52,037 bases of DNA from Caldifarciminota bacterium (GTDB lineage: Bacteria > Hydrothermota > UBA3073), in assembly GCA_023129165.1 (NCBI GenBank), contig JAGMCL010000109.1, positions 1 to 52,037 of the forward strand, in the 5' to 3' direction. Under the pieces are notes generated by a model that worked only from the letters and a program-made list of their open reading frames with translations, ran no database searches and was not told the DNA's origin. This document shows positions 2,504 through 52,015 of this stretch, one piece after another (position 1 is the stretch's first letter; each line of letters starts with the position of its first letter). Made by a program: the position numbers and the translations under genes.

Positions 2504-2908
2504 ATGAAGCTTAAATCATTCAAGGAGCTTAAGGTTTGGCAGCTGTCTCATAAACTTTCAATAGAAGTTTCAGATCTTGTAAAAACCTTTCCCAAAGATG
2601 AGAAATACGATCTTGCTGATCAAATGCGGCGCTCGGCACGAAGCATTCCTTCGGCGATTGCGGAAGGTTTTGGTAGGTTTCACTTTAATGACAAGTTAAC
2701 ATTCTATGAAAGGGGAAATGCATCGTTATTAGAGCTAAAGAACCATTTTGATGAAGCCAAAGAGAATAAATATATAAGTGATAAAGAATACAGGTATTAT
2801 CAAAAAAGAATGAATGAAATAGGGTTTCTTTTAGTTCGAATGATGAGTAAGATAAGAAAACATAGGGATGAGTATGAAGTTCAGAAAAAAGCCTATTCTC
2901 GTAAATAA
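2504..2908 (+). CDS. Four-helix bundle protein (23S rRNA-IVP/S23 family), copy 1
   Basis: FKELKVWQLSHKLSIEV...FPKDEKYDLADQMRRSARSIPSAIAEGFGR. Confidence 0.9.
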   Translation: MKLKSFKELKVWQLSHKLSIEVSDLVKTFPKDEKYDLADQMRRSARSIPSAIAEGFGRFHFNDKLTFYERGNASLLELKNHFDEAKENKYISDKEYRYYQKRMNEIGFLLVRMMSKIRKHRDEYEVQKKAYSRK

Positions 2909-3135
2909 CAATTCCAGCGAACGAAGTGAGCTAACTTCCAGTCGCAGGCTAACTTCCAGTCGCAGGCTAACTTCCAATGCGAAGCATTAACTTCCATTCC
3001 GAAGGAATAATTTCCAGCACGCAGTGCTCTTTTCCAGCGAACGAAGTGAGATAACTTCCAGCATCGGAGATGGTATCTTCCAGCACCAACGGTGCTAACT
3101 TCCATTCACGAAGTGAATAACTACACGAAGTGAAT
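2907..3135. repeat. Array of about 11 mini-hairpin units: conserved TAACTTCCA linker plus sequence-variable short palindrome with GNA-type triloop
   Basis: Units such as ATGC-GAA-GCAT, TTCC-GAA-GGAA, AGCAC-GCA-GTGCT, CATC-GGA-GATG, GCACC-AAC-GGTGC, TTCAC-GAA-GTGAA. Confidence 0.9.
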
Positions 3136-37854: not shown

Positions 37855-38226
37855 TTGAAGGAAAAAGTAAAAGATAAAAGTTTTGGTTTTATGTCGTTGC
37901 CGTTTGGTCTAATTTCCGTGATCTATATTGCCCTAATTTTCATTCTTTCGGGTATTTCGGGGGAAATTGAATTGATAAAGAGGTTTAATCCGCTTAGTCT
38001 GCTGCATATCCCCTTATATGGTTTATTAACGTTTTTTCTTATATGCACCTTCTGGCAAAAGGGCAAAAAGTTATTAATTCTTGCAATTTTTATTGCTCTT
38101 TTGGTAGCGATTTTTGACGAACTGAATCAGATTCATATACCAGGAAGAATGGCATCAGGATGGGATGTGGTGATGGATGCGGTGGGGATAGGGATGGTGA
38201 TGTTATGCGTAAGGCGTAGAGCGTAA
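37855..38226 (+). CDS. VanZ-like membrane protein, copy 1; last codons run into the heptamer array
   Basis: DELNQIHIPGRMASGWDVVMDAVGIG. Confidence 0.85.
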   Translation: MKEKVKDKSFGFMSLPFGLISVIYIALIFILSGISGEIELIKRFNPLSLLHIPLYGLLTFFLICTFWQKGKKLLILAIFIALLVAIFDELNQIHIPGRMASGWDVVMDAVGIGMVMLCVRRRA

Positions 38227-38367
38227 GGCGTAGAGCGTAATGCGTAAGGCGTAAAGCGAGGAACATGGGGAGTAGGGCGTAAGGCGTAGAGTGTAGGGAG
38301 TAAGGCGTAGAGTGTAGGGCGTAAGGAGTAGGGAGTAGGGAGTAAGGCGTAGGGCGTAAAGCGAGGA
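38207..38367. repeat. Heptamer array A, 23 x 7 nt in register (GCGTARR, GAGTARG, GTGTAGG variants)
   Basis: gcgtaag gcgtaga gcgtaag gcgtaga gcgtaat gcgtaag gcgtaaa gcgagga acatggg gagtagg gcgtaag ... gcgtaaa gcgagga, directly before ggattATG of the four-helix gene. Confidence 0.95.
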
Positions 38368-38372
38368 GGATT

Positions 38373-38756
38373 ATGAGGGGCGATTTAAAAGGATATAAAG
38401 ATTTGGATGTTTATCAATTGTCTTACAAAATGGCTATTGAGATATTTGAAGAAACAAAGAATTTTCCTAAAGAAGAAAAGTTTTCGTTGACTGACCAGAT
38501 TCGCCGTTCCTCAAGGTCAATAGCGAGTAACATTGCTGAATCATGGGGTAAACGAATGTATCGTAACCATTTTGTAAACAAGCTCAGCGATAGTTATGCA
38601 GAGGCCAATGAGACCCAGACCTGGCTCGACTTTAGCCTTTCGCATAGCTATATGAATAAAGAAAGGTATGACTATTTCACTGATAATTATGACCATATAA
38701 GTCGAATGTTGTTTAATATGATGAAAAATCCTGAAAAATTTCTTTTAAAGTTATGA
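38373..38756 (+). CDS. Four-helix bundle protein (S23/IVP family), copy 2
   Basis: YKDLDVYQLSYKMAIEIF...FSLTDQIRRSSRSIASNIAESWGKR. Confidence 0.92.
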   Translation: MRGDLKGYKDLDVYQLSYKMAIEIFEETKNFPKEEKFSLTDQIRRSSRSIASNIAESWGKRMYRNHFVNKLSDSYAEANETQTWLDFSLSHSYMNKERYDYFTDNYDHISRMLFNMMKNPEKFLLKL

Positions 38757-38802: not shown

Positions 38803-38867
38803 GCTCTTTACGCATTACTCTATACTCCTTACGCAAGATTAAATGTGCATACTGCTTACTGCATACT
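38803..38867. repeat. Heptamer array A' in inverted orientation, plus three GCATACT/GCTTACT heptamers
   Basis: gctcttt acgcatt actctat actcctt acgcaag = reverse complement of GCGTAAG/GAGTATA/GAGTAAT/GCGTAAA; then gcatact gcttact gcatact. Confidence 0.9.
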
Positions 38868-39254: not shown

Positions 39255-39803
39255 ATGACTAAAAATAAAGAAATTTTGTTTGTTACTAATACCCAAAAGG
39301 TGTTATATTTTTTCCTAAATAAGTCTGGAGAAGAATTTTTGGGAAGTGAGCTGGAGGGGAAAATCGGCATCAGCAGATCTGGTATCTATTATGCGTTGAA
39401 GGAACTTACTAACGAAGGATTCTTATGTCAGCATGTAAAAGGCGATATAAGCTTTTACTCGTTGAATTATAATAATCCAGTGGTCAAGCATCTTAAGGTC
39501 TTAAAAACGGTAATAGAAATTCAACCACTTCTTGAAAAACTAAAAAAACTCTCATCAAGAATAGTCCTTTTTGGTAGCTCTTCTCGTGGAGAAACTGTCA
39601 AGGATAGCGATATAGATTTATTTATCGCGACTCATAACAAAAAGGCAATTGAAGAAGAAATTACAAAGTTTGGGTTGAAAAAAAGGATACAGGCTGTTAA
39701 AAAGACAGAGCTAGAGTATGTAGAGTTGAAAAGAAGTGATCCTGTTTTTTATGAACAGATAAATAGAGGTATTCTATTATGGGAGGAAGAGGATGAATCC
39801 TGA
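39255..39803 (+). CDS. wHTH domain fused to MNT-type nucleotidyltransferase
   Basis: KIGISRSGIYYALKELTNEGFL...RIVLFGSSSRGETVKDSDIDLFI. Confidence 0.88.
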   Translation: MTKNKEILFVTNTQKVLYFFLNKSGEEFLGSELEGKIGISRSGIYYALKELTNEGFLCQHVKGDISFYSLNYNNPVVKHLKVLKTVIEIQPLLEKLKKLSSRIVLFGSSSRGETVKDSDIDLFIATHNKKAIEEEITKFGLKKRIQAVKKTELEYVELKRSDPVFYEQINRGILLWEEEDES

Positions 39804-40221
39804 TTTTGAAAATTGCTTGAAGAAAAACAAGATAAGAAAATTTAGCCCTGGAAAATCTCTCACAGGGAAAGAAATTGCTACTGCAGAAAGTGATATTAAA
39901 GAAGCAAAGGAATCTCTCGCAAGAAAGAAGTATAAATGGGCGACCATTCAGGCATACTATTCTATGTTTCATTCCGCAAGGGCGCTCTTATACAACAAGA
40001 ATTACAGAGAGAAAAGCCATTACTGTTTGATTATTGCTTTGAAGGTTCTTTATGTAAAAACTGGTGAATTACCTATTCGTCTTGTGGAGGGTTTACAAAG
40101 AGGCAAGAACTTGCGGGAGGACGCTGATTATTACAACGAGTGGTCAAAAGCAGGATCTGAGGAGATGATAAAAATAGCCTATGAATTTTTAGAGGTCGCA
40201 AGTAGTATTGATAAACAGTAA
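39793..40221 (+). CDS. HEPN-domain protein
   Basis: KYKWATIQAYYSMFHSARALLYNKNYREKSHYCLIIAL; overlaps MNT gene. Confidence 0.88.
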   Translation: MNPDFENCLKKNKIRKFSPGKSLTGKEIATAESDIKEAKESLARKKYKWATIQAYYSMFHSARALLYNKNYREKSHYCLIIALKVLYVKTGELPIRLVEGLQRGKNLREDADYYNEWSKAGSEEMIKIAYEFLEVASSIDKQ

Positions 40222-40249
40222 AAGTGAACTTTGCCGAAAGAGTTAGGGA

Positions 40250-40610
40250 TAAATAAGGCGTCCCAGTGGAATAGTTACCCGATGAAATAGTTACACAATT
40301 CACCCTGTACATTATCACTACAGGGCAAGCCATAATGTAATATAAAACCTAATTACACCCTGTTAAATAGTTAACACATCTCACAGGGCAAGTATGGCAA
40401 GCAGGACAAGTCGCATTTCACCCTGTACACTACGCTACAGGACAAGCCATAATGTAATAAAGTGAAACATTACACCCCATTAGATAGTTTACACATCTCA
40501 CCATAATGAAATATAATAAACCTGATTACATATGGCAAGCAGGGCAAGTATGGCAAGCGGGATAAATAGGGTGTGAAGCGTAAGTCGTGAGGAGTAGATA
40601 AGCGATAAAT
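40250..40610. repeat. Cluster of palindromic mini-elements, 9-mer repeats and heptamer remnants
   Basis: CCCAGTGGAATAG, CACCCTGTACattatcacTACAGGG, CCCTGTtaaatagttaacacatctcACAGGG, GGCAAGTAT/GGCAAGCAG 9-mers, gaagcgtaagtcgtgaggagta. Confidence 0.75.
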
Positions 40611-41841: not shown

Positions 41842-41972
41842 CCCTGATGAAATACATACCCTGTTGAATAGCTCTGCTTCCACCATAATGTAATAAAGTG
41901 AAACATTACACCCCATTAGATAGTTTACACATCTCACAGGACAAGCATGGCAAGCAGGGCAGGCAGGGTAAA

Positions 41973-42187: not shown

Positions 42188-43396
42188 ATGTGGAAGGGAA
42201 TTGGTTTTAGTGCTGAGCCCTTTCTATCAATAGAGCCATTGTCTGCAAAAGAGGAACTTGAGTACTTCGTGGACAGAGAAGAAGAAATAATAGAACTTTC
42301 TTCTTATTTAGCAAGAGACCATTCTTTTAATCTCTTGATTACAGGAAAAGCCGGTATTGGTAAGACATCGCTTGTTAATAAGACCCTCTCCCGCTTTCCG
42401 ACATCTCTTCGGATAAACCTTTCACAATTGGAAGAACATCAGGCTATTATGGATAGAATCGTTCTTGAAGTAGCAAAATTTGCGAAAAATTTAGGCATAA
42501 GGGAAGGAAAGAGTATTGAGGAACAACTTGTATATGAATCACGGTTGATTAAAGGTACCGCAGGAAATCTTAGTGGGGGGATACCATTTCTTAGAGGAGG
42601 AATACAAAGAGAAAAAAGAGAAGAGGAGGTTTTAAGGGAAACTCTGATTTCGAGAGAAACACTATTGGAAGAGCTTTTGGAGAAAATTATGAATAAGAGA
42701 GGATTATTGATAATGTTTTTAGACGACGCTGACCATTTACCAGAAAGCCTCCAGACAAGAATTCTTGAATCCTGTGAATCCGTTTTTGTTTCTAAGAGAT
42801 GTATCTCAATCTTTGCATCAAGGAAAGAGACAGGCAAGCTCTTTGCAAGCGACGCCGATTCTGTTTACAGAGCGCGCTTCGTTGATTTTATAGAATTGAA
42901 AAACATTATAAAAAGGGACCCACGTTCAGTAGAGCAAATTTTACGTCCAAGATTTGAAAAGGTTGCATTAGATACTTACGTTTATCCGTTTACTACAGAA
43001 GCAAATCGATTCCTGAGCGATATATGTGATGGTAATATTAGAGAACTATTACGGTACGCTTCAATCATAATAGGGCAAGCAGTTCGCCAGAATGTACCCG
43101 TACCCTTGCAGGTTGAATTTGCAATGGCTGCCCTTGCAAGCAAAAATTATCTTGTTGGAGAAATAGATGAAGAATTATACCATGTGCTAAATGCATTGAA
43201 GAATAAATCTATGTCAGCATCTGATATAGAGTTCCAAACGTCTACAAGTCTTGCACGGGCAACACTTTCAAACATTTGCAATCGTCTTTGCAAAGATGGA
43301 TTACTTAATAAGACCATTAACAAGAAAAAGGTATTTTACTCCATTTCACCCAAAGGGGAACATACCTTGAACATGTACGAGACCTTAAGGAGATAA
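42188..43396 (+). CDS. AAA+ ATPase with C-terminal winged helix
   Basis: LLITGKAGIGKTSLVNKTL Walker A; LIMFLDDADHLPE Walker B; C-terminal wHTH (TSTSLARATLSNICNRLCKDGLLNKTINKKKVFYSI). Confidence 0.88.
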   Translation: MWKGIGFSAEPFLSIEPLSAKEELEYFVDREEEIIELSSYLARDHSFNLLITGKAGIGKTSLVNKTLSRFPTSLRINLSQLEEHQAIMDRIVLEVAKFAKNLGIREGKSIEEQLVYESRLIKGTAGNLSGGIPFLRGGIQREKREEEVLRETLISRETLLEELLEKIMNKRGLLIMFLDDADHLPESLQTRILESCESVFVSKRCISIFASRKETGKLFASDADSVYRARFVDFIELKNIIKRDPRSVEQILRPRFEKVALDTYVYPFTTEANRFLSDICDGNIRELLRYASIIIGQAVRQNVPVPLQVEFAMAALASKNYLVGEIDEELYHVLNALKNKSMSASDIEFQTSTSLARATLSNICNRLCKDGLLNKTINKKKVFYSISPKGEHTLNMYETLRR

Positions 43397-43431
43397 AACT
43401 GTTGGAATATGAAATTGAAAAATTGATAAAA

Positions 43432-43480
43432 CTGCTACAACTGTTTTTATATTGTAGCAGATAAAAACAGTTGTAGCAGA
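43432..43480. repeat. Long palindrome downstream of AAA ATPase gene, related to 42111-42160
   Basis: CTGCTACAACTGTTTTTATattgtagcagATAAAAACAGTTGTAGCAG, 19-bp perfect arms. Confidence 0.9.
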
Positions 43481-43529
43481 ACTGTTTGATAAAATTGTGC
43501 ATAAGGAAGGTCGTTTATAGAAAGGAGAG

Positions 43530-43592
43530 ATGATGCGAGTACCAATTATGGACTTGAAGAGACAGTATCTTTCAATAAAGTCTGTGGACAGG
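43530..43592 (+). pseudogene. 5' fragment of a DegT-type aminotransferase gene
   Basis: MRVPIMDLKRQYLSIKSVDR* resembles MKVNFLDLKAQYLSIKEEVD of the intact gene at 34500. Confidence 0.75.
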
Positions 43593-43911
43593 TAAGAGAG
43601 AATTCAGACAGATAGGTGAGGAGGATGCAAACGGATAAGAAAAGATGCAGACTGAAGACCAGAGACAAGGGGAAAAGGAAAAAGGGAAATTGCCCACGGA
43701 GATCACTGAGTAAAAAGATAATTAAAGAATTATAAACGTTTCGTGTTTTTCGCCTGCCCCGCAGGGAGGAATGACCGTATCGGGGTGTACTTCGTGGGGG
43801 AAAAATTTGTGTAATCGATTTATAATCTGTGAAATCAGAGATTGCTGACTCTTTCAGTAATCTCCAGTTTTTTCTTGACATTCTTCAGGTTTTATGTTAT
43901 AGTTTATTTAT

Positions 43912-43978
43912 GTAGTAAACCGGATTTGGTATAAACTAATAAAGTTTACTAAAAGGTAAACTAAATAAGAGTAAACTG
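43912..43978. promoter_or_regulatory. Cluster of GTAAAC/GTTTAC sites between promoter and start of ATPase gene
   Basis: tgtaGTAAACcgg..atAAACt..aGTTTACt..gGTAAACt..aGTAAACtg in 67 bp. Confidence 0.6.
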
Positions 43979-45115
43979 ATGGAGTTTAAAATGTACAAGA
44001 TATTTCCTGTTGGGGTCCCGGTAACGGGGAGAAATTTAATAGGGAGAAAAAAAGAGATAGAAGAAATTGGGAGATCGTTGGAGATTGGACAAAGTGTTAT
44101 CATAACTGCTCCAAGAAAATATGGTAAGACATCACTCATATTTGAAATGCTGAATCAGGCAAAGGTAAAGGGTTATTTTACAGGATTAGTGGATGTATTT
44201 GGTGTACTTACAAAGAGAGAACTTGCCGAGAGAATTGTAGATTCTGTGCTTGTCAATAGACGAATCAGGCATGCAATAAAAAGGGTCAAGGAGAATATTG
44301 TCAATGCAATGAAGAGCATGGAATTTAAGCAGGTTGTCCAAGACTTTGAATTCATACTTGGGTTTTCCAATTATCAAATTGACGAGGAAGCCCTCCTGGA
44401 TGAAGCATTGGACTTCCCCGAGAAATTTGCACGGAAATATGATAAAAGAGTCATCCTGGCATTTGATGAGTTCGGAGACATCTGCAAACTAGATGGCGAA
44501 GCCCTTATGAAGAAAATGAGATCTAAATTTCAATTACACCAAAACGTCACTTATATATTCTCTGGCAGTCAGGAAACCCTTATGAAAGATTTATTCACCA
44601 AGAGAAAAAGTGCTTTTTTCAGGTTCGGTAGAGTCTTCTATTTATCCGGGTTGCCAAAGGCAGATTTTAAGTCGTACATTATCAGGAGCTTCAATCGAGA
44701 GGGAGTCGAGATAGATGAATCCTGTGTAGATGATCTTTTGTATAAGACAGATGGTCACCCCTATTATACGCAACTTGTCTGTCAATTATGCTATCTAAAT
44801 GTAAAAAGGGGGAAAGAGAGGGTTGCATCAAGAGAAATGGAAGAGGCATATAAGAAGGCGATATTACTTGAGAGACCATATTTCGAAGAAATGGAAATAT
44901 CTTTGATGGAGAATAAATACCAATTACTCCTTGTCAGACAACTTGTTTATGACGAGGGATCTGCATATAAGGTAAAAGGGATAGATAAACAATACATTTA
45001 TAAGTTGATTGTTGCATTACAGAAAAGGGGGATAATCAAAAGAATTGATAGGGGAAAATATACCCTCACCGACCCTTTATTCAAAAGTTATCTGGAACTA
45101 AGAAACGAGAAGTAG
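43979..45115 (+). CDS. AAA ATPase (ATPase_2/archaeal-type)
   Basis: GRNLIGRKKEIEEIGRSLEIGQSVIITAPRKYGKTSLIFEML; VILAFDEFGDI. Confidence 0.88.
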   Translation: MEFKMYKIFPVGVPVTGRNLIGRKKEIEEIGRSLEIGQSVIITAPRKYGKTSLIFEMLNQAKVKGYFTGLVDVFGVLTKRELAERIVDSVLVNRRIRHAIKRVKENIVNAMKSMEFKQVVQDFEFILGFSNYQIDEEALLDEALDFPEKFARKYDKRVILAFDEFGDICKLDGEALMKKMRSKFQLHQNVTYIFSGSQETLMKDLFTKRKSAFFRFGRVFYLSGLPKADFKSYIIRSFNREGVEIDESCVDDLLYKTDGHPYYTQLVCQLCYLNVKRGKERVASREMEEAYKKAILLERPYFEEMEISLMENKYQLLLVRQLVYDEGSAYKVKGIDKQYIYKLIVALQKRGIIKRIDRGKYTLTDPLFKSYLELRNEK

Positions 45116-45141
45116 GAAGTGATGAGTAGGGAAAAGGGAAA

Positions 45142-45240
45142 TTGCCCACGAAGGACACCCCGATATAGTCGTTCCCCATTAAATATTGCTTCGCATTTAA
45201 CGGGATAAACCTCCCTACGGGGCAGGCGGAAATCACTAAA
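45142..45240. repeat. Palindromic element with a second palindromic element nested at 45175-45210
   Basis: CACCCCGATATAGTCGTTC[CCCATTAAATattgcttcgcATTTAACGGGataaac]CTCCCTACGGGGCAGGCGG vs un-nested copy at 46708-46745. Confidence 0.88.
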
Positions 45241-45355
45241 TTAAAAGATAGAATTAAATTAAAAGATATAAGGCCCACAGAAAACATGGAGTGCACTAAA
45301 AAATAAAGAAATTAAAGAGTTATAAGAATTCCGTGAATTTCGTGGGAAAGAGATG

Positions 45356-45403
45356 GCCCACGGAGTACACCCCGATATAGTCATTCTTCCCTACGGGGCA
45401 GGC
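45356..45403. repeat. 33-bp palindromic insertion (45371-45403) in a repeated intergenic module
   Basis: gcccacggagtacac[cccgatatagtcattcttccctacggggcaggc]tgagttcactgaaaataaag; empty counterpart at 46931-46965. Confidence 0.88.
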
Positions 45404-45545
45404 TGAGTTCACTGAAAATAAAGAAAATAAATTCCGTGTGTTCCGTGATCTTCGTGGGAGAAAAATCAGGTCATCTGTGGGAGATAATAGCTCAGTGGGA
45501 GAATATTTTTGTGGGCTTTTTTCTTGACTTTCTTGCGAAATTATA

Positions 45546-45561
45546 GTATAATGCATTATAC
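45546..45561. promoter_or_regulatory. Perfect 16-bp palindrome GTATAATGCATTATAC overlapping the -10 region
   Basis: Self-complementary; TTGACT upstream. Confidence 0.75.
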
Positions 45562-45587
45562 AAAATAGTATAACAACAATTACTATA

Positions 45588-46694
45588 ATGAAAAATCCCT
45601 TCAAATATGGTGAAATTGTAAGTGGTGAATACTTCACCGACAGGAAGAAAGAGATAAGGGATATAACTGAGTGTATTAAGGCTTCTCAGAATATGTTCAT
45701 TTACTCCTACAGGCGGATGGGCAAGACATCACTAATTAAAAATGTCCTGTCTCTGTTTAAAGACAAGATAACTCCCATTTATATAGACTTGGAAAAGTCG
45801 CCGACCATAAATCACTTTCTTAAGGATTATTCTGCTTCAATAAGTCAGCATTTTCTTGGCACAAAGGAGAGATTGAAGGAGATCGCCTCTTTCTTCAAGC
45901 GAGTTATTCCAAGTTTTGAACTTTCTGAGGGAGGATGGAAGGTGTCTTTTGACTTTTCAAGAACCACAGCAGGTATTGAAAAGGCGTTGGATGAGGTGAT
46001 TGAAATACCCCAAAAGATTGCAGAAAGGTACAAAAGGCATGTTGTCGTGGTTTTTGATGAGTTTCAGGAGATAGAGCAATATAACGGTAAAGTATTTGAG
46101 AAGAGGTTAAGGGCGTCTATTCAGCATCAGAATGATGTATGTTATATCTTTATAGGTAGTAAGACCCATATAATTCTTAATATGTTTACCAATCCTGAGA
46201 GGGCGTTTTTCAGGTCTGCTATGGTTTATCCCCTTGATTATATCCCGGATAATGAACTAGTAGAATTTATACAAGGTCGTTTCGGTTCAACAGGCAAAGA
46301 TGTTTCTGAATCATCGGCAAAAAGGATTGTTCAACTCTCTAACAGAAGTCCCTATCATATACAACTACTTTGTTTCCATATCTGGTTAGTAAGTGGAAAG
46401 AAGATAGACGAAACACAGATTGATAAGGCACTTGACGAGGTTTTGAGCGCTCAGAATGAGTTGTATTACAGTTGGTATGATTCGCTCTCGTTGTATCAGA
46501 AGGCCGTCCTTTTGGCACTTTCGCAGGAGAGGGAGATATTTTCCCAGGATGTAATACTGACCTATGGATTGAAAAATCCCTCTACAACTCAGGCATCGGT
46601 GAAGGCACTGTTGAGGAATAATCGGATTATAAAGACAAAAGAGGGATATGACATCTTCGATCCATTCTTTAAGTTATGGCTGATGAAGAGATAA
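45588..46694 (+). CDS. AAA ATPase (ATPase_2/archaeal-type), paralogue of 43979-45115
   Basis: FTDRKKEIRDITECIKASQNMFIYSYRRMGKTSLIKNVL; VVVFDEFQEIEQYNG. Confidence 0.9.
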   Translation: MKNPFKYGEIVSGEYFTDRKKEIRDITECIKASQNMFIYSYRRMGKTSLIKNVLSLFKDKITPIYIDLEKSPTINHFLKDYSASISQHFLGTKERLKEIASFFKRVIPSFELSEGGWKVSFDFSRTTAGIEKALDEVIEIPQKIAERYKRHVVVVFDEFQEIEQYNGKVFEKRLRASIQHQNDVCYIFIGSKTHIILNMFTNPERAFFRSAMVYPLDYIPDNELVEFIQGRFGSTGKDVSESSAKRIVQLSNRSPYHIQLLCFHIWLVSGKKIDETQIDKALDEVLSAQNELYYSWYDSLSLYQKAVLLALSQEREIFSQDVILTYGLKNPSTTQASVKALLRNNRIIKTKEGYDIFDPFFKLWLMKR

Positions 46695-47103
46695 TGGCCC
46701 ACGAAGGACACCCCGATATAGTCGTTCCTCCCTACGGGGCAGGCGGAGATCACTAAATTAAGTAAATAAAAGACAAAGAATAATAGAAGATTAAAAGATG
46801 GCCCACGAAGGAGATAGGGAAATTGCCCACGGAGTACACTAAGTTCACGAAAGATATAAATTAAAAAGAAAAAGAAATAAAAGAATTGTAAGATTTTCGT
46901 GCATTCCGTGAATTTCGTGGGAAAGAGATGGCCCACGGAGTACACTGAGTTCACTGAAAATAAAGAAAAGAAATTTCGTGCATTCCGTGTATTTCGTGGG
47001 GAAAGTTTTTTTGTCTTTAGTGGGGGAAAATTTTCGTGGGCAGTTTTTTCTTGACTTCTTTTAGATTTTATGATATTATTTGTGTAGTAAACTAGATATA
47101 TAT

Positions 47104-48309
47104 ATGTTCGATGTTGCGGTTATAGGAGCTGGACCCATAGGTTGTTACACTGCATACCAACTTGCTGACAAGGGATTTGATGTGCTGTTGTTAGAGGAGG
47201 ATGATGAGGTTGGAAGGAATGTTGTTTGCACCGGAGTAATTGGTAAGGAGGCATTTGAACGATTTAATATTCCTAAAGATTCTATAATTGCCAAGATAAA
47301 TAGACTCCTTTTTGTTTCACCATCTAATATTCACCTTGAGTATATACACCAGGATGAGCTTGCATATGTTGTGAATAGATACAGGTTCGATAAGGGGATT
47401 TTTCAACTGGCATTAAGTAGAGGGGTTGAGGTCAAATTGGGAGAGGGTGTACAAGATATAAGAGAAGAGGGGGATAGGGTCGTATTACAGACAGACAATA
47501 GCATATATAGAGCTAACACTGCTGTTATTGCTACTGGTGTAAACCCCGCACCCTGCCCTACTTCGCGGAGTAAGGCTGGGGAAGGACGAGATGTTATGAG
47601 GTGCGGGGTAAATTACGAGCTACAACGTTCAGCAGGGATGGGAATAGTTAAAAATTTCCTGATGGGGGCGCAGATTAATTTACCTGAATACCGAACATAT
47701 GAAGAGTTATCTACTGCGAATTCAACGGTTGAGATACATACTGGACGGAGGATTGCACCAGGTTCATTTGGGTGGGTTGTGCCATCAAATGGAAGTGTTA
47801 GAGTTGGTGTGATGACTGAGAAAAATCCAAAATATTGGCTAAAGAAATTCATTGAAAATAGATTGAATCAAGTAATTTCTAATGACGATGGATTTAGAGA
47901 GAAACCCATTGCATTTGGTTCCATTGAAAGGAGTGTAAGTGGTAGGATACTTGCAGTAGGAGAGGCTGCTGGACAGGTAAAGACAACAACAGGTGGAGGA
48001 ATATTTTATGGGCTTTTAGGTTCTGAAATAGCAGTGAATATGCTTATAAAAGCTATCAAGACTGGGAATATGGATTATCTTACAGAATATGAGCAGAGAT
48101 GGAGAGGAATGCTCGAGGAAGAGATATTTATGGGATGGCATATAAGAAAGTTGGCTAAGAAAATAGATGATGAGACACTTGATAGGCTATTTAAACGGTT
48201 CAAGAGAGGAAAGTTCCTTGCAATGAGGATAATAAGACGGATAAATTTTGAATATCATGGAGCCCTTTTAGCTTTTTGCCTAAAGGCGTTTGGAGGAATA
48301 ATTAAGTGA
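47104..48309 (+). CDS. FAD-dependent oxidoreductase (geranylgeranyl reductase family) with 23-aa in-frame insertion
   Basis: FDVAVIGAGPIGCYTAYQLADKGFDVLLLEED; AVGEAAGQVKTTTGGGIFYGL; insertion at 47539-47612. Confidence 0.9.
   Translation: MFDVAVIGAGPIGCYTAYQLADKGFDVLLLEEDDEVGRNVVCTGVIGKEAFERFNIPKDSIIAKINRLLFVSPSNIHLEYIHQDELAYVVNRYRFDKGIFQLALSRGVEVKLGEGVQDIREEGDRVVLQTDNSIYRANTAVIATGVNPAPCPTSRSKAGEGRDVMRCGVNYELQRSAGMGIVKNFLMGAQINLPEYRTYEELSTANSTVEIHTGRRIAPGSFGWVVPSNGSVRVGVMTEKNPKYWLKKFIENRLNQVISNDDGFREKPIAFGSIERSVSGRILAVGEAAGQVKTTTGGGIFYGLLGSEIAVNMLIKAIKTGNMDYLTEYEQRWRGMLEEEIFMGWHIRKLAKKIDDETLDRLFKRFKRGKFLAMRIIRRINFEYHGALLAFCLKAFGGIIK
47539..47612. repeat. 69-bp palindromic element inside the FAD oxidoreductase CDS, with direct repeat GTAAA
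   Basis: GTAAA(47539-47543)-CCCCGCACC...GGTGCGGGG-TAAA; GTAAA repeated at 47608-47612. Confidence 0.85.
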
Positions 48310-48310
48310 T

Positions 48311-48436
48311 GATAGACTACAGACAGCAGACCACAGACCGCAGACTACAGACCGCAGACTACAGACCGCAGACTGCAGACTACAGACCACAAACCACAGA
48401 CTACAGACCGCAGACTACAGACCACAGACTAAGGAC
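48311..48436. repeat. Heptamer array B, about 18 x 7 nt (TACAGAC, CGCAGAC, CACAGAC)
   Basis: gatagac tacagac agcagac cacagac cgcagac tacagac cgcagac tacagac cgcagac tgcagac tacagac cacaaac cacagac ... Confidence 0.95.
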
Positions 48437-48470
48437 TAAAAAATTAATTAATAAAGGAAGGAGGAGGATT

Positions 48471-48833
48471 ATGGGAAGGGATTATAGGAAGATTAAGGCA
48501 TGGAAATTAGCAGATGAACTGGCAGTCTTAATATATAAGTCAACAGGTGATTTTCCAAAGTCTGAAATCTATGGACTTACTTCTCAAATAAGGAGAGCAG
48601 CGGTATCTGTAGCTGCAAATATAGTAGAAGGAGCATCACGCAAAACAAAACTTGATTATTCCCATTTTTTATATATTTCAAGAGGTTCATTGGCTGAGGT
48701 TGGATATTATATACATCTTTCGAGAAGATTGGACTTCATTGATGACAATAAGTGTACTAAATTGGGTAGGTTGCAACAAGAAACTGCTGCTACACTTTAT
48801 GGATTGATAAAGTCTGTAGAAAGTGAAACTTGA
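48471..48833 (+). CDS. Four-helix bundle protein (S23/IVP family), copy 3
   Basis: MGRDYRKIKAWKLADELAVLIYKSTGDFPKSEIYGLTSQIRRAAVSVAANIVEGASR; GAGGAGGATTATG start context as in copy 2. Confidence 0.92.
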   Translation: MGRDYRKIKAWKLADELAVLIYKSTGDFPKSEIYGLTSQIRRAAVSVAANIVEGASRKTKLDYSHFLYISRGSLAEVGYYIHLSRRLDFIDDNKCTKLGRLQQETAATLYGLIKSVESET

Positions 48834-48852
48834 AAAAAAACCTTATATTTTT

Positions 48853-48887
48853 AGTCTATGGTCTGTGGTCTGTAGTCTGTTGTCTAA
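48853..48887. repeat. Heptamer array B', inverted orientation
   Basis: agtctat ggtctgt ggtctgt agtctgt tgtctaa = reverse complement of CAGACT/CAGACC units. Confidence 0.92.
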
Positions 48888-48906
48888 GCTTATCAACGGG
48901 GGTATT

Positions 48907-49371
48907 ATGATAAAGGGAAGTAGGTTATTAATATTACTTGTGTTATTGTTTGCTACAATTTCTTTTGCTCAAGAGGGAATACAGGGGGGTGCACAGTTTT
49001 ATGTATATCCAGGTGATGTGGGGGAGCTTCAGATTAAGGTTCAGATATGGGGACAGGTCCGAATGCCCGGGATGTATCAGGTGCCAAAGAGTATGGATGT
49101 AGTAGGACTTATGTCTCTTGCCGGAGGACCGACTGAGGATGCAAACCTTTCGGCAGTGAGGATTGTACGCACAGCACCTATATCTGATGTCCTTAAGGTA
49201 GATATACAAGGTTATACACGTTCCGCATCAATAGAATCCATACCAATACTTGAGGCTGGTGATATGGTGATTATTCCTGAAAACCCATATCATAAATTTG
49301 AAAGGTTTGTAAGGGTAGTAGCACAAATTGCCATAATAGCGCAGGTGTATAATGTGTTGTTTGGAGAATGA
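48907..49371 (+). CDS. Secreted SLBB-domain polysaccharide-export-like protein
   Basis: Signal peptide MIKGSRLLILLVLLFATISFAQ; VQIWGQVRMPGMYQVPKSMDVVGLMSLAGGPTEDANLSAVRIVR. Confidence 0.85.
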   Translation: MIKGSRLLILLVLLFATISFAQEGIQGGAQFYVYPGDVGELQIKVQIWGQVRMPGMYQVPKSMDVVGLMSLAGGPTEDANLSAVRIVRTAPISDVLKVDIQGYTRSASIESIPILEAGDMVIIPENPYHKFERFVRVVAQIAIIAQVYNVLFGE

Positions 49372-49375
49372 GATA

Positions 49376-49438
49376 GTTAGTAAACAGTATGCACTATGCA
49401 GTAAGCAGCAGGTTGCTAAATATAATGCACTAAGGAGT
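49376..49438. repeat. Heptamer array C (degenerate)
   Basis: gttagta aacagta tgcacta tgcagta agcagca ... atgcact aaggagt. Confidence 0.7.
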
Positions 49439-49443
49439 GAAAA

Positions 49444-49818
49444 GTGGGATATAAAGGATATAGAGACTTAAAGGTATTTAAATTATCATATAAATTAGCT
49501 ATGGAGGTATTTGTAATAACAAAATTATTTCCCAAGGAAGAGAAATATTCGTTAACCGATCAAATAAGAAGGTCGTCTCGAGGTGTGCCTGCCAATATAG
49601 CAGAAGGATGGAAAAAAAGAAGATATCCAAAAATGTTCATCAGTAAGACAATCGACGCCGCTGGTGAAGCAGGTGAAACAGAAGTATGGCTTGATTTTTC
49701 GTTGGATTGCGGCTATATTAATCAAGAAAAATATGATTATTTTATCGAAGGATATGATGAGGTAAACCGGATGCTTTATGGAATGATAGGGAAGCCAGAG
49801 AGTTTCTGTGGAAGTTAG
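49444..49818 (+). CDS. Four-helix bundle protein (S23/IVP family), copy 4
   Basis: YRDLKVFKLSYKLAMEVFVITKLFPKEEKYSLTDQIRRSSRGVPANIAEGWKKR; GTG start. Confidence 0.92.
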   Translation: MGYKGYRDLKVFKLSYKLAMEVFVITKLFPKEEKYSLTDQIRRSSRGVPANIAEGWKKRRYPKMFISKTIDAAGEAGETEVWLDFSLDCGYINQEKYDYFIEGYDEVNRMLYGMIGKPESFCGS

Positions 49819-49853
49819 TGCTTAGTACATACGGCTTACTGCTTAGTTAATAT
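49819..49853. repeat. Heptamer array C', inverted orientation, starting right at the stop codon
   Basis: tgcttag tacatac ggcttac tgcttag ttaatat. Confidence 0.75.
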
Positions 49854-49885
49854 CTGAAGTCTATTATCTAATCCGGGGGGGAAAT

Positions 49886-52015
49886 ATGGAAGGGGAGCAG
49901 GAACAAGTATCTTTAGAGGATTATTTGAGAATTCTCTTTGAAAGAAAGTGGATAATCTTGGGTGTTTTCCTGGCAATTGTTATCTCAACTGCTGTGTTTA
50001 CATTCAGACAAGAGCCTATATATGAGGCAACATGCACCATAATGATAGAACCAGAGACCCGACAGGAGGACATATTTCAACTTGGTTATCCAACTGCGGT
50101 GAATATCGAGAACTACACAGAGATTTTGAAATCGGTTACTATAGCTGAACACACAATTAAGAAAGTAGAAGGTACTGGTTTTTCTATATTAATGTCAGTA
50201 AATCCGGTGGTTGCACTTATTGGCAGGTTAGAGGTTTCGCCTGTGAGGAATACTGATATATTGAAGATTTCTGTTAAGGGTAAGACACCTGATGAGGCAT
50301 CTGTGCTTACAAATACAATTGCAGATGTCTTGATTGAGTTAGAACTTGCTACTTCCAGAAAGGAATATAGCGAGCAAAGGCATTTTTTAGAGGAGCAGAT
50401 GCCAATCGTTAAAGATAGGTTGGCAAGTGTAGAAGGTCAATTGAAGAGGTTCAAGGAAAGGACAGGTTTGGTTGATTTATCTGAGGAGACGAGGCAACTT
50501 ACAGAAAAGTTGCTTGATTTTGATAAGTTGTATGGTCAGGTAGAAAGTGAACTTGAATATCAAAAATCGAGATTAGCTTCTTTTGAAGTAAACCTTGAAG
50601 AGACACAGAGAACACTTATAGAGAAGATATCACAGATATCATCACCATATATTCTTGAATTGCGAAGCAGGCTTGTAGAATTAGAGACGACTTATTCTAT
50701 GTATTTAGTACAGGGATTACCAAAGGGCAACCCAAAACTTATTAGTTTAAGAAAGAGTATTGATGAGACAAAGATAAAACTCATCGAGGAGACCAATAAG
50801 ATAAAGGATGTAGAAATCCCCACACTCGACCCATTATCCTACTCCCAAAAGCTCGTAGACGAGATAGTCACTTTAAGGATTAATGTATCCGCAGGAGAGA
50901 CAAGGTTGAATGTTCTTGGAGATGCAATTAAGGGTTATGAGGAACGATTGAAGAGATTGCCAGCACACGAACTTCAGTTGATAGAACTCGAAAGGGAAAG
51001 AGAAATAAATGCAAATACCTATAAACTTTTAATGGAGAGGTATGAGGAAGTAAGAATTGTTGAGGCGGGTAAGATATCCAATGTAAGGATTATCGATAGA
51101 GCCAGGCCGCCAGGGAGTCCTGTATCCCCGAAAAAGAGATTGAACCTTATATTATCGATTATTATAGGACTTTTGGTTGGAGTTGGTGGTGCATTTGTGC
51201 TGGAATACACTGACAATTCGATAAAAACACCAAAGGACATAGAGAGATATGCAGGTCTTCCAATTATCGGTTCAATACCAATGCTGAAAAGAAAAGATAA
51301 TAACAAACCAATTCTTATCACTGATTTATCGTCGAGGTCAACTCTTCGGGAGGCATTAAGGGGAATAAGAACAAACTTGAAGTTCATAAATCCTGATAAA
51401 CCAATAAAGACATTACTTGTAACATCTCCAATTCCCCAGGAGGGTAAGACTTCGGCAGCAGTGAACCTTGCAATAACGTTATCTCAACTTGGTTTGAAAA
51501 CACTTATCATAGATGCTGATATGCGAAAATCGGCTGTATACAAGTTTTTAGATATCGAGGGCAAAACTCTTACAGAGTATCTTGTATCTGGTGGCGACAT
51601 TGAATCGATTATTCATTCGACTGATATTGATAACGTGAGTGCTATAATATCGAAGAGCCCACCACCTAATCCATCAGAGTTATTAGGTTCTGAAAAGATA
51701 AAAGACTTGCTTTCAGATTTAAAAGAAAAATTTGATTTTATTTTAATAGACAGTCCACCTGTGCTTACATGTACTGATGCTGCAGTCGTTGCCTCTTTTG
51801 TAGATGCTGTTTTGATCGTTGTGAAGTCACATAAAACTCCAAGAAATGCACTTGTGCAGACAAAGGATATAATGGAGCGTGTAAGGGCAAAGATTGCTGG
51901 AGCAGTATTAAATATGGTACCAACGGGTCGCAGTTCCTTTGGTTATTACCGTTATTACCATTACTACCACTATTATTCCTATCATCCGTATACTGAGGAG
52001 GAAAGGAATGCGTAG
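49886..52015 (+). CDS. Wzz/GNVR chain-length determinant fused to BY-kinase (Wzc/CpsD-like)
   Basis: EEYLRILFERKWIILGVF-like N-terminus (here EDYLRILFERKWIILGVF); VTSPIPQEGKTSAAVNLAITLSQLGLKTLIIDADMR; Tyr-rich tail YYRYYHYYHYYSYHPY. Confidence 0.95.
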   Translation: MEGEQEQVSLEDYLRILFERKWIILGVFLAIVISTAVFTFRQEPIYEATCTIMIEPETRQEDIFQLGYPTAVNIENYTEILKSVTIAEHTIKKVEGTGFSILMSVNPVVALIGRLEVSPVRNTDILKISVKGKTPDEASVLTNTIADVLIELELATSRKEYSEQRHFLEEQMPIVKDRLASVEGQLKRFKERTGLVDLSEETRQLTEKLLDFDKLYGQVESELEYQKSRLASFEVNLEETQRTLIEKISQISSPYILELRSRLVELETTYSMYLVQGLPKGNPKLISLRKSIDETKIKLIEETNKIKDVEIPTLDPLSYSQKLVDEIVTLRINVSAGETRLNVLGDAIKGYEERLKRLPAHELQLIELEREREINANTYKLLMERYEEVRIVEAGKISNVRIIDRARPPGSPVSPKKRLNLILSIIIGLLVGVGGAFVLEYTDNSIKTPKDIERYAGLPIIGSIPMLKRKDNNKPILITDLSSRSTLREALRGIRTNLKFINPDKPIKTLLVTSPIPQEGKTSAAVNLAITLSQLGLKTLIIDADMRKSAVYKFLDIEGKTLTEYLVSGGDIESIIHSTDIDNVSAIISKSPPPNPSELLGSEKIKDLLSDLKEKFDFILIDSPPVLTCTDAAVVASFVDAVLIVVKSHKTPRNALVQTKDIMERVRAKIAGAVLNMVPTGRSSFGYYRYYHYYHYYSYHPYTEEERNA

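Follow-up and report, generated by a model that had tools for sequence, protein, structure and literature searches.

S23 Genes Enclosed by Inverted Arrays of Short Words, and Their Replacement at Conserved Intergenic Slots in a WOR-3 Genome

Results

Genes and Repeats at the Locus

The 52,037-nucleotide stretch of DNA analysed here by computation (the window) comes from a genome of the WOR-3 lineage, all genomes of which are metagenome assemblies. It contains four S23 genes, three of them with heptamer arms and one, copy 1 (2522-2833), from which such arms are absent. Toward its end, an oxidoreductase gene, an SLBB gene and a Wzc-like gene are separated by two slots; slot 1 is occupied by cassette B (AGACTAC arms), and slot 2 by cassette A (AGTAAGC arms), which carries copy 4 (Table 1). 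The initial annotation had described a heptamer run upstream of copy 4 and inverse heptamers beginning at its stop codon, and both were recovered: the upstream run consists of AGTAWGC units (a TRF row covers 49379-49408 with period 7), and the downstream run reads TTAGTGC, TTAGTAC, ATACGGC, TTACTGC, TTAGTTA, overlapping the TAG stop codon (49816-49818). The arms of cassette A are short, about 4-5 units each. Their inverted flank match of 29 was attained by none of 600 dinucleotide shuffles (mean 17.8, sd 2.3; 250-bp flanks), and 2 of 300 real control windows reached an inverted score of 28. The single-copy arm signal is thus significant but modest, and the family-wide evidence presented below is overwhelming. 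For cassette B, the inverted-repeat score is 51 (0 of 600 shuffles). The S23 frame is the only one open between the arms of cassette A, and neither the ORFs nor a profile search revealed a transposase between the terminal repeats, or a Y1 HUH transposase within the unit. The copy-2 and copy-4 proteins are 56% identical in alignment.

Table 1. Features of the window discussed in the text
Feature	Position	Strand	Basis or profile match
Upstream arm of copy 2, GCGTARG heptamers	38207..38366	+	
S23 gene of copy 2	38373..38756	+	PF05635 2.9e-33
Downstream arm of copy 2, inverse GCGTARG heptamers	38807..38834	-	
Solo array with cassette A word (AGTATGC AGTAAGC AGTATGC)	38847..38867	-	
FAD-dependent oxidoreductase before slot 1	47080..48309	+	PF01266 4.5e-15
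Upstream arm of cassette B (slot 1), about 18 AGACYRC heptamers	48314..48442	+	
S23 gene of cassette B, 120 aa from ATG	48471..48833	+	PF05635 4.4e-31
Downstream arm of cassette B, GTCTRTG inverse heptamers	48853..48885	-	
SLBB polysaccharide-export gene between slots 1 and 2, start chosen at ATG	48907..49371	+	PF10531 2.2e-9
Cassette A (slot 2), segment unlike that of the sister genome	49376..49851	+	where identity with sister breaks off and resumes
Upstream arm of cassette A (AGTAAAC AGTATGC ACTATGC AGTAAGC)	49379..49406	+	direct reading
S23 / 23S_rRNA_IVP gene of cassette A (copy 4), GTG start, 124 aa	49444..49818	+	PF05635, TIGR02436
Downstream arm of cassette A, inverse heptamers	49815..49851	-	direct reading; pairs with upstream arm in RNA fold
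Wzc-like chain-length determinant / tyrosine autokinase after slot 2	49886..52015	+	PF13807, PF13614, PF02706

Several other features of the window were recorded. Downstream of copy 1 (2900-3110), there are 18-22-nt repeats consisting of TAACTTCCA and a short hairpin, and S23 proteins related to copy 1 in another genome (G020) have arms with ACGCTNCGCTGT; the copy-1 subfamily may use hairpin-type repeats. A separate dispersed repeat family (GGGCAAGC / ATGTGTWAACTATCTAACAGGGTGTAAT) occupies 593-1812, 40246-40548 and 41857-41968, has opposite orientations toward either end of the window, and adjoins solo heptamer arrays elsewhere in the genome (e.g., loci L263 and L266). A nucleotidyltransferase (MNT) and HEPN gene pair at 39255-40221 is likely a toxin-antitoxin module, and 42188-46694 contains three consecutive ATPase_2/AAA genes in a region with similar TTTTTTCTTGAC...TATAAT promoter-like blocks (repeat family D6).

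The S23 Protein

S23/IVP genes, also labelled "four helix bundle", occur widely, and to our knowledge their function is not known. The initial annotation took the slot-2 cassette to be degenerate, a description that does not hold: the reading frame is intact, and its product matches PF05635 with 114.1 bits (4.3e-33; curated cut-off 33.8) and TIGR02436 with 104.7 bits (2.8e-30; cut-off 24), which by these profile scores is an intact member of the S23 / 23S_rRNA_IVP family. The AlphaFold (AF2) model is a four-helix bundle (pLDDT 94.5), for which Foldseek returned 2GSC and 2RLD and, more distantly, the Avd structure 4DWL (TM 0.77 by query length); crystals of relatives contain five chains. The source genome has 16 PF05635 matches. 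A PADLOC run gave zero defence matches, and zero phage records were matched.

The weak similarity to Avd models and the Avd fold match raise the question of a retroelement, in which an Avd-like S23 protein would act with a reverse transcriptase copying the cassette RNA. This reading is strongly disfavoured and has a very small probability in our assessment: the Avd profile scores fall below curated cut-offs (29.2 vs. 80 bits for NF033474, 25.3 vs. 40 for bAvd), and RVT_1 was found in none of 11 genomes (the source and 10 relatives) by a search that does find it in control genomes, so a reverse transcriptase partner was rejected.

In a separate observation, an S23 gene of the source genome (contig C34:47454-48051) is interrupted, in two pieces, by an 85-aa ORF (MYYVYILRSKKDMQFYIGYTADLKKRVEL...) that looks GIY-YIG endonuclease-like by eye; an S23 match of the sister genome (contig C57:853-1265) is likewise in two pieces.

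Inverted Arms and Their Words

The flanks of S23 loci in the source genome share one design, with tandem heptamers on one side and their reverse complement on the opposite side, and the word differs at nearly every locus. We examined 193 S23 genes from WOR-3 relatives, many phyla and viral-contig collections, and found inverted flanking arrays (match of at least 28) at 142 of them, compared to 2 of 300 control windows; direct flank matches were far rarer (34 of the 193). The repeat unit is mostly 7 nt, with units of 8, 6 and 9 nt found too, and the median arm has 5 units. About one quarter of S23 genes, window copy 1 among them, have no clear arms. The order of units in the two arms is barely mirrored, as shuffling it hardly lowers the pairing score (z 0.37); this rejects exact mirror palindromes and leaves inverted arrays. 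Among IMG/VR contigs classed as viral, a class that is a database label, 26 of 28 S23 genes have strong inverted arms, several of which share GGCNNTC; a seemingly reversed S23 orientation in viral contigs was not used, given their GC richness (0.57) and unreliable ORF calls.

The more identical two S23 proteins are, the more similar are their arm words, an effect confined to words compared in the same orientation (Mantel rho 0.245, compared to a maximum of 0.088 in 500 permutations); for the WOR-3 relatives alone the values are 0.19 and 0.118. The profile survey of genome contigs covered the relatives of the copy-4 protein, i.e., one subfamily. Among 32 homologues of this protein with at least 60% identity, including ones from WOR-3, Auribacterota, Omnitrophota, Deltaproteobacteria, Nitrospinia and Bacteroidota, AGTA[AGT]G occurs at least twice upstream on the + strand in 20 and downstream on the - strand in 20; both arms have it in 17, and the opposite arrangement was found in 0. 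Unconstrained intergenic sequence should be unrecognisable at the divergence of this set, and we therefore infer that the word is under functional constraint. Because the word follows the protein, the S23 protein probably binds its own word. Cyanobacterial plasmids carry the copy-4 protein type with GCAGGGGA-type arms. On a Pseudanabaena plasmid (NZ_CP112875.1), an S23 cassette with AGCTAAA arms of about 15 units interrupts a CRISPR operon between its cas6 and cas4 genes.

Exchange and Absence of Cassettes at Conserved Slots

The closest genome available for comparison (G001; same genus, about 95% DNA identity) has a contig (C41) that is colinear with window positions 48134-52002 at about 94-97% identity, with the order oxidoreductase, slot 1, SLBB, slot 2, Wzc; the SLBB proteins share 96% of amino acids. 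A same-genus sister contig, JAUWGP010000054.1, belongs to a candidate division WOR-3 MAG. In the sister genome, the contents of the two slots are swapped: cassette A is in slot 1 and cassette B in slot 2, each with its own arms and in unchanged orientation. Identity at slot 2 ends after GAATGAGATA (to 49375) and returns at TCTGAAGTCTATTAT (from 49852). At slot 1 of the sister genome, cassette A is embedded in leftover B-type arm sequence (TAGACTACAGACAG ... TGTCTAAGC), and the swap junctions are within arrays or at array edges. A graph misassembly seems an unlikely cause, because the mixed junction array is only about 40 bp long and the contig name indicates an assembly with k=141. By this comparison, the arms appear to belong to the cassette and to move along with the gene, and the movement itself would take place via the arms.

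Other cassette sites of the source genome are also differently filled in the sister genome: one (L013) is without a cassette and measures 53 bp instead of 556, one (L007) has a short, gene-less inverted array, one (L012) keeps the arrays while the gene is absent, and one (L001) holds a different S23 gene with different arms. Comparison of occupied with empty sites revealed differences at both ends, and neither a clean target duplication nor a fixed terminal motif was seen. At the first of these sites (C127:8564), the S23 cassette replaces the end of a nucleotidyltransferase-like gene, the frame of which continues through the arm into S23 as a read-through ORF of 284 aa; the cassette is absent there from the sister genome.

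In most of the more distant relatives examined, SLBB and Wzc are adjacent and S23-free, with gaps of roughly 20-75 bp, and because of this the insertion between them appears to be derived. The claim of an insertion in the initial annotation is thus borne out by most relatives; the gene is not a constant resident of the site, and empty sites exist. The proposed search for an uninterrupted SLBB-Wzc pair in closely related genomes succeeded in most relatives and failed in the closest genome, the slot of which holds cassette B.

Solo Arrays

Arrays also occur alone. A 221-kb genome sample not picked for S23 has 39 period-7 arrays, compared to 2 after shuffling (the counts include two all-N stretches, once each, on both sides), and the words of solo arrays resemble the S23 arms of their own genome more closely than they resemble reversed arms (38 vs. 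16, p=1.4e-5). Most solo arrays do not adjoin an S23 gene. The copy-4 doublet AGTAWGCAGTAWGC has 26 occurrences with at most one mismatch, compared to 5 for the pattern read backwards. The three heptamers noted earlier beside copy 2 (GCATACT-GCTTACT-GCATACT) are indeed there and belong to the same vocabulary, and they are one array among about 15, dispersed in the genome, that carry the cassette A word. The accompanying hint of exchange between distant arrays is supported in a stronger form by the swap of whole cassettes with their arms across SLBB; derivation of this particular array from copy 4 cannot be shown, because the doublet recurs at so many other places.

We know of no agreed origin for the heptamer repeats of bacterial genomes. 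Such repeats are common in many of these genomes (PMC4679880), and S23-free arrays are abundant in the source genome, as would be expected if the heptamers were ordinary products of polymerase slippage and the S23 genes were merely located in repeat-rich spacers. We consider this highly improbable: inverted arms are not equally frequent around random genes (the 142 of 193 vs. 2 of 300 comparison above), and slippage explains neither why one word, in one orientation, accompanies one protein subfamily in several phyla nor why arms stay with their gene when it changes place.

Transcript Context and Host Enzymes

In 91 of 108 cases, the S23 cassette and the co-directional genes on either side of it have the same orientation, and in 3 the cassette is antisense, as expected if cassettes are tolerated through the transcript. 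RNA folding predictions for cassettes A and B have the structure closed by the arms and the ORF in the loop; fold stability is unremarkable for cassette A (z -1.65), and z is -3.75 for cassette B. An RNA stem should have G-U mismatches in preference to A-C ones. The WOR-3 set had this preference (81 vs. 53, p=0.02), and a wider set did not (81 vs. 73); this signature, seen in the WOR-3 set only, was dropped as a proof of RNA selection.

The arms directly adjoin the gene and are located, in sense, within operons; the word is specific to the protein subfamily, the median arm has 5 units, and crystals of relatives hold five chains. These properties would also suit operator or attenuator sites, where each subunit of an S23 pentamer would bind one word (about 5 x 7 nt in all, as TRAP does on its repeats) and the pentamer would regulate the expression of its own gene and the neighbouring operon, with movement being incidental. 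We regard this as unlikely. The same slots of the sister genome are empty, swapped or filled with unrelated S23 types, and the neighbours are therefore not a conserved target; moreover, autoregulation needs no inverse arm downstream of the stop codon, and most solo arrays are not beside an S23 gene.

Mobility between slots and the REP-like dispersal of solo arrays could alternatively reflect a transposon-like element, on the terminal arrays of which a host transposase acts in trans, e.g., an IS200/REP-type Y1 HUH enzyme on hairpin arms. Y1_Tnp genes are present in 9 of the 11 genomes, with 8 matches in the source genome; however, one genome (G007) has 5 S23 genes and zero Y1_Tnp matches, and the Y1 transposase was rejected as an obligatory partner. 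Furthermore, neither a fixed terminal motif nor a clean target duplication could be made out, and so strong a sense-orientation bias is unusual for such elements. We judge this explanation to be rather improbable.

Discussion

A Cassette Model

The architecture, the coupling of words to protein subfamilies, the conserved slots at which one cassette has replaced another, and the solo arrays were all seen in the data, and the best explanation is probably that the units are selfish cassettes of about 500-600 bp, similar to an IVS, with an S23 gene between inverted arrays of a short word. The S23 protein, a pentamer by homology, would recognise its own word in DNA or RNA, and the arms would pair in the host transcript, placing the whole ORF in a loop. 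RNase III could then trim the looped cassette from the transcript, as in 23S rRNA intervening sequences, and therefore insertion between co-directional genes of an operon would be tolerable. The arms would also mediate relocation, through strand invasion or through recombination of one array with another, with existing arrays as landing sites, and reverse transcriptase would play no part.

A broader proposal, which we advance tentatively and hold to be possible rather than probable, is that such cassettes constitute a widespread class of mobile elements. These elements would encode a single protein, a small four-helix-bundle pentamer without enzymatic activity, which would read the 6-9-nt word of its own element; inverted arrays of the word would serve as element ends, landing sites and RNA hairpin stem, and rRNA intervening sequences and many dispersed heptamer repeats would be special cases or debris.

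Comparison with Known Systems

The literature that we found on the subject consists of the Coxiella heptamers and unrelated heptamer surveys; a general account of arm-bracketed S23 genes, of word-protein coupling or of slot exchange was not found in it, the coverage being incomplete. Several known systems resemble the cassettes in part. RAYT/TnpA_REP genes and REPs (PMC8266576, PMC3116915) are similar in that a gene is flanked by its own repeats, which co-vary with it and have scattered gene-free copies; this is an analogy only, as the cassette unit has no HUH transposase, and its repeats are tandem 6-9-mers, not palindromes with GTAG. The Avd protein of diversity-generating retroelements has a four-helix-bundle fold like S23 (4DWL), whereas the source genome here has no reverse transcriptase, and the Avd scores are below cut-offs. 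The TAACTGA repeats of Beggiatoaceae and the cyanobacterial STRRs (PMC4679880) are, like the cassette arrays, intergenic tandem heptamers in many copies; the text of that survey contains no mention of S23 or four helix, and no link to S23 or inverted-arm design.

The closest known counterpart of the cassettes of the window is the 23S rRNA intervening sequence. In Coxiella burnetii, this sequence contains an S23p ORF with terminal inverted repeats that form a 28-bp stem, tandem GACAGAT heptamers beside the ORF vary in unit number between strains, and RNase III cleaves at the start of the repeats (PMC4990558). Cassette A and the intervening sequence are alike in encoding S23p between complementary termini, and the intervening sequence and the window cassettes both have tandem heptamers next to the S23 ORF; the sporadic, presumed horizontal distribution of intervening sequences is also counted as common to the cassettes. 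They differ in location, as the intervening sequence lies inside the 23S rRNA gene and cassette A is instead between the SLBB and Wzc protein genes. Unlike intervening sequences, cassettes are present in many copies per genome, with a word of their own for each subfamily and solo arrays elsewhere. The intervening sequence is excised by RNase III, and its ends are not religated afterwards, whereas the stem of the cassettes is predicted from sequence alone. The present data join S23 genes and heptamer repeats into one unit with a subfamily-specific word, from which follows the testable prediction that each S23 protein binds its own word, and the nature and spread of rRNA intervening sequences become directly approachable.
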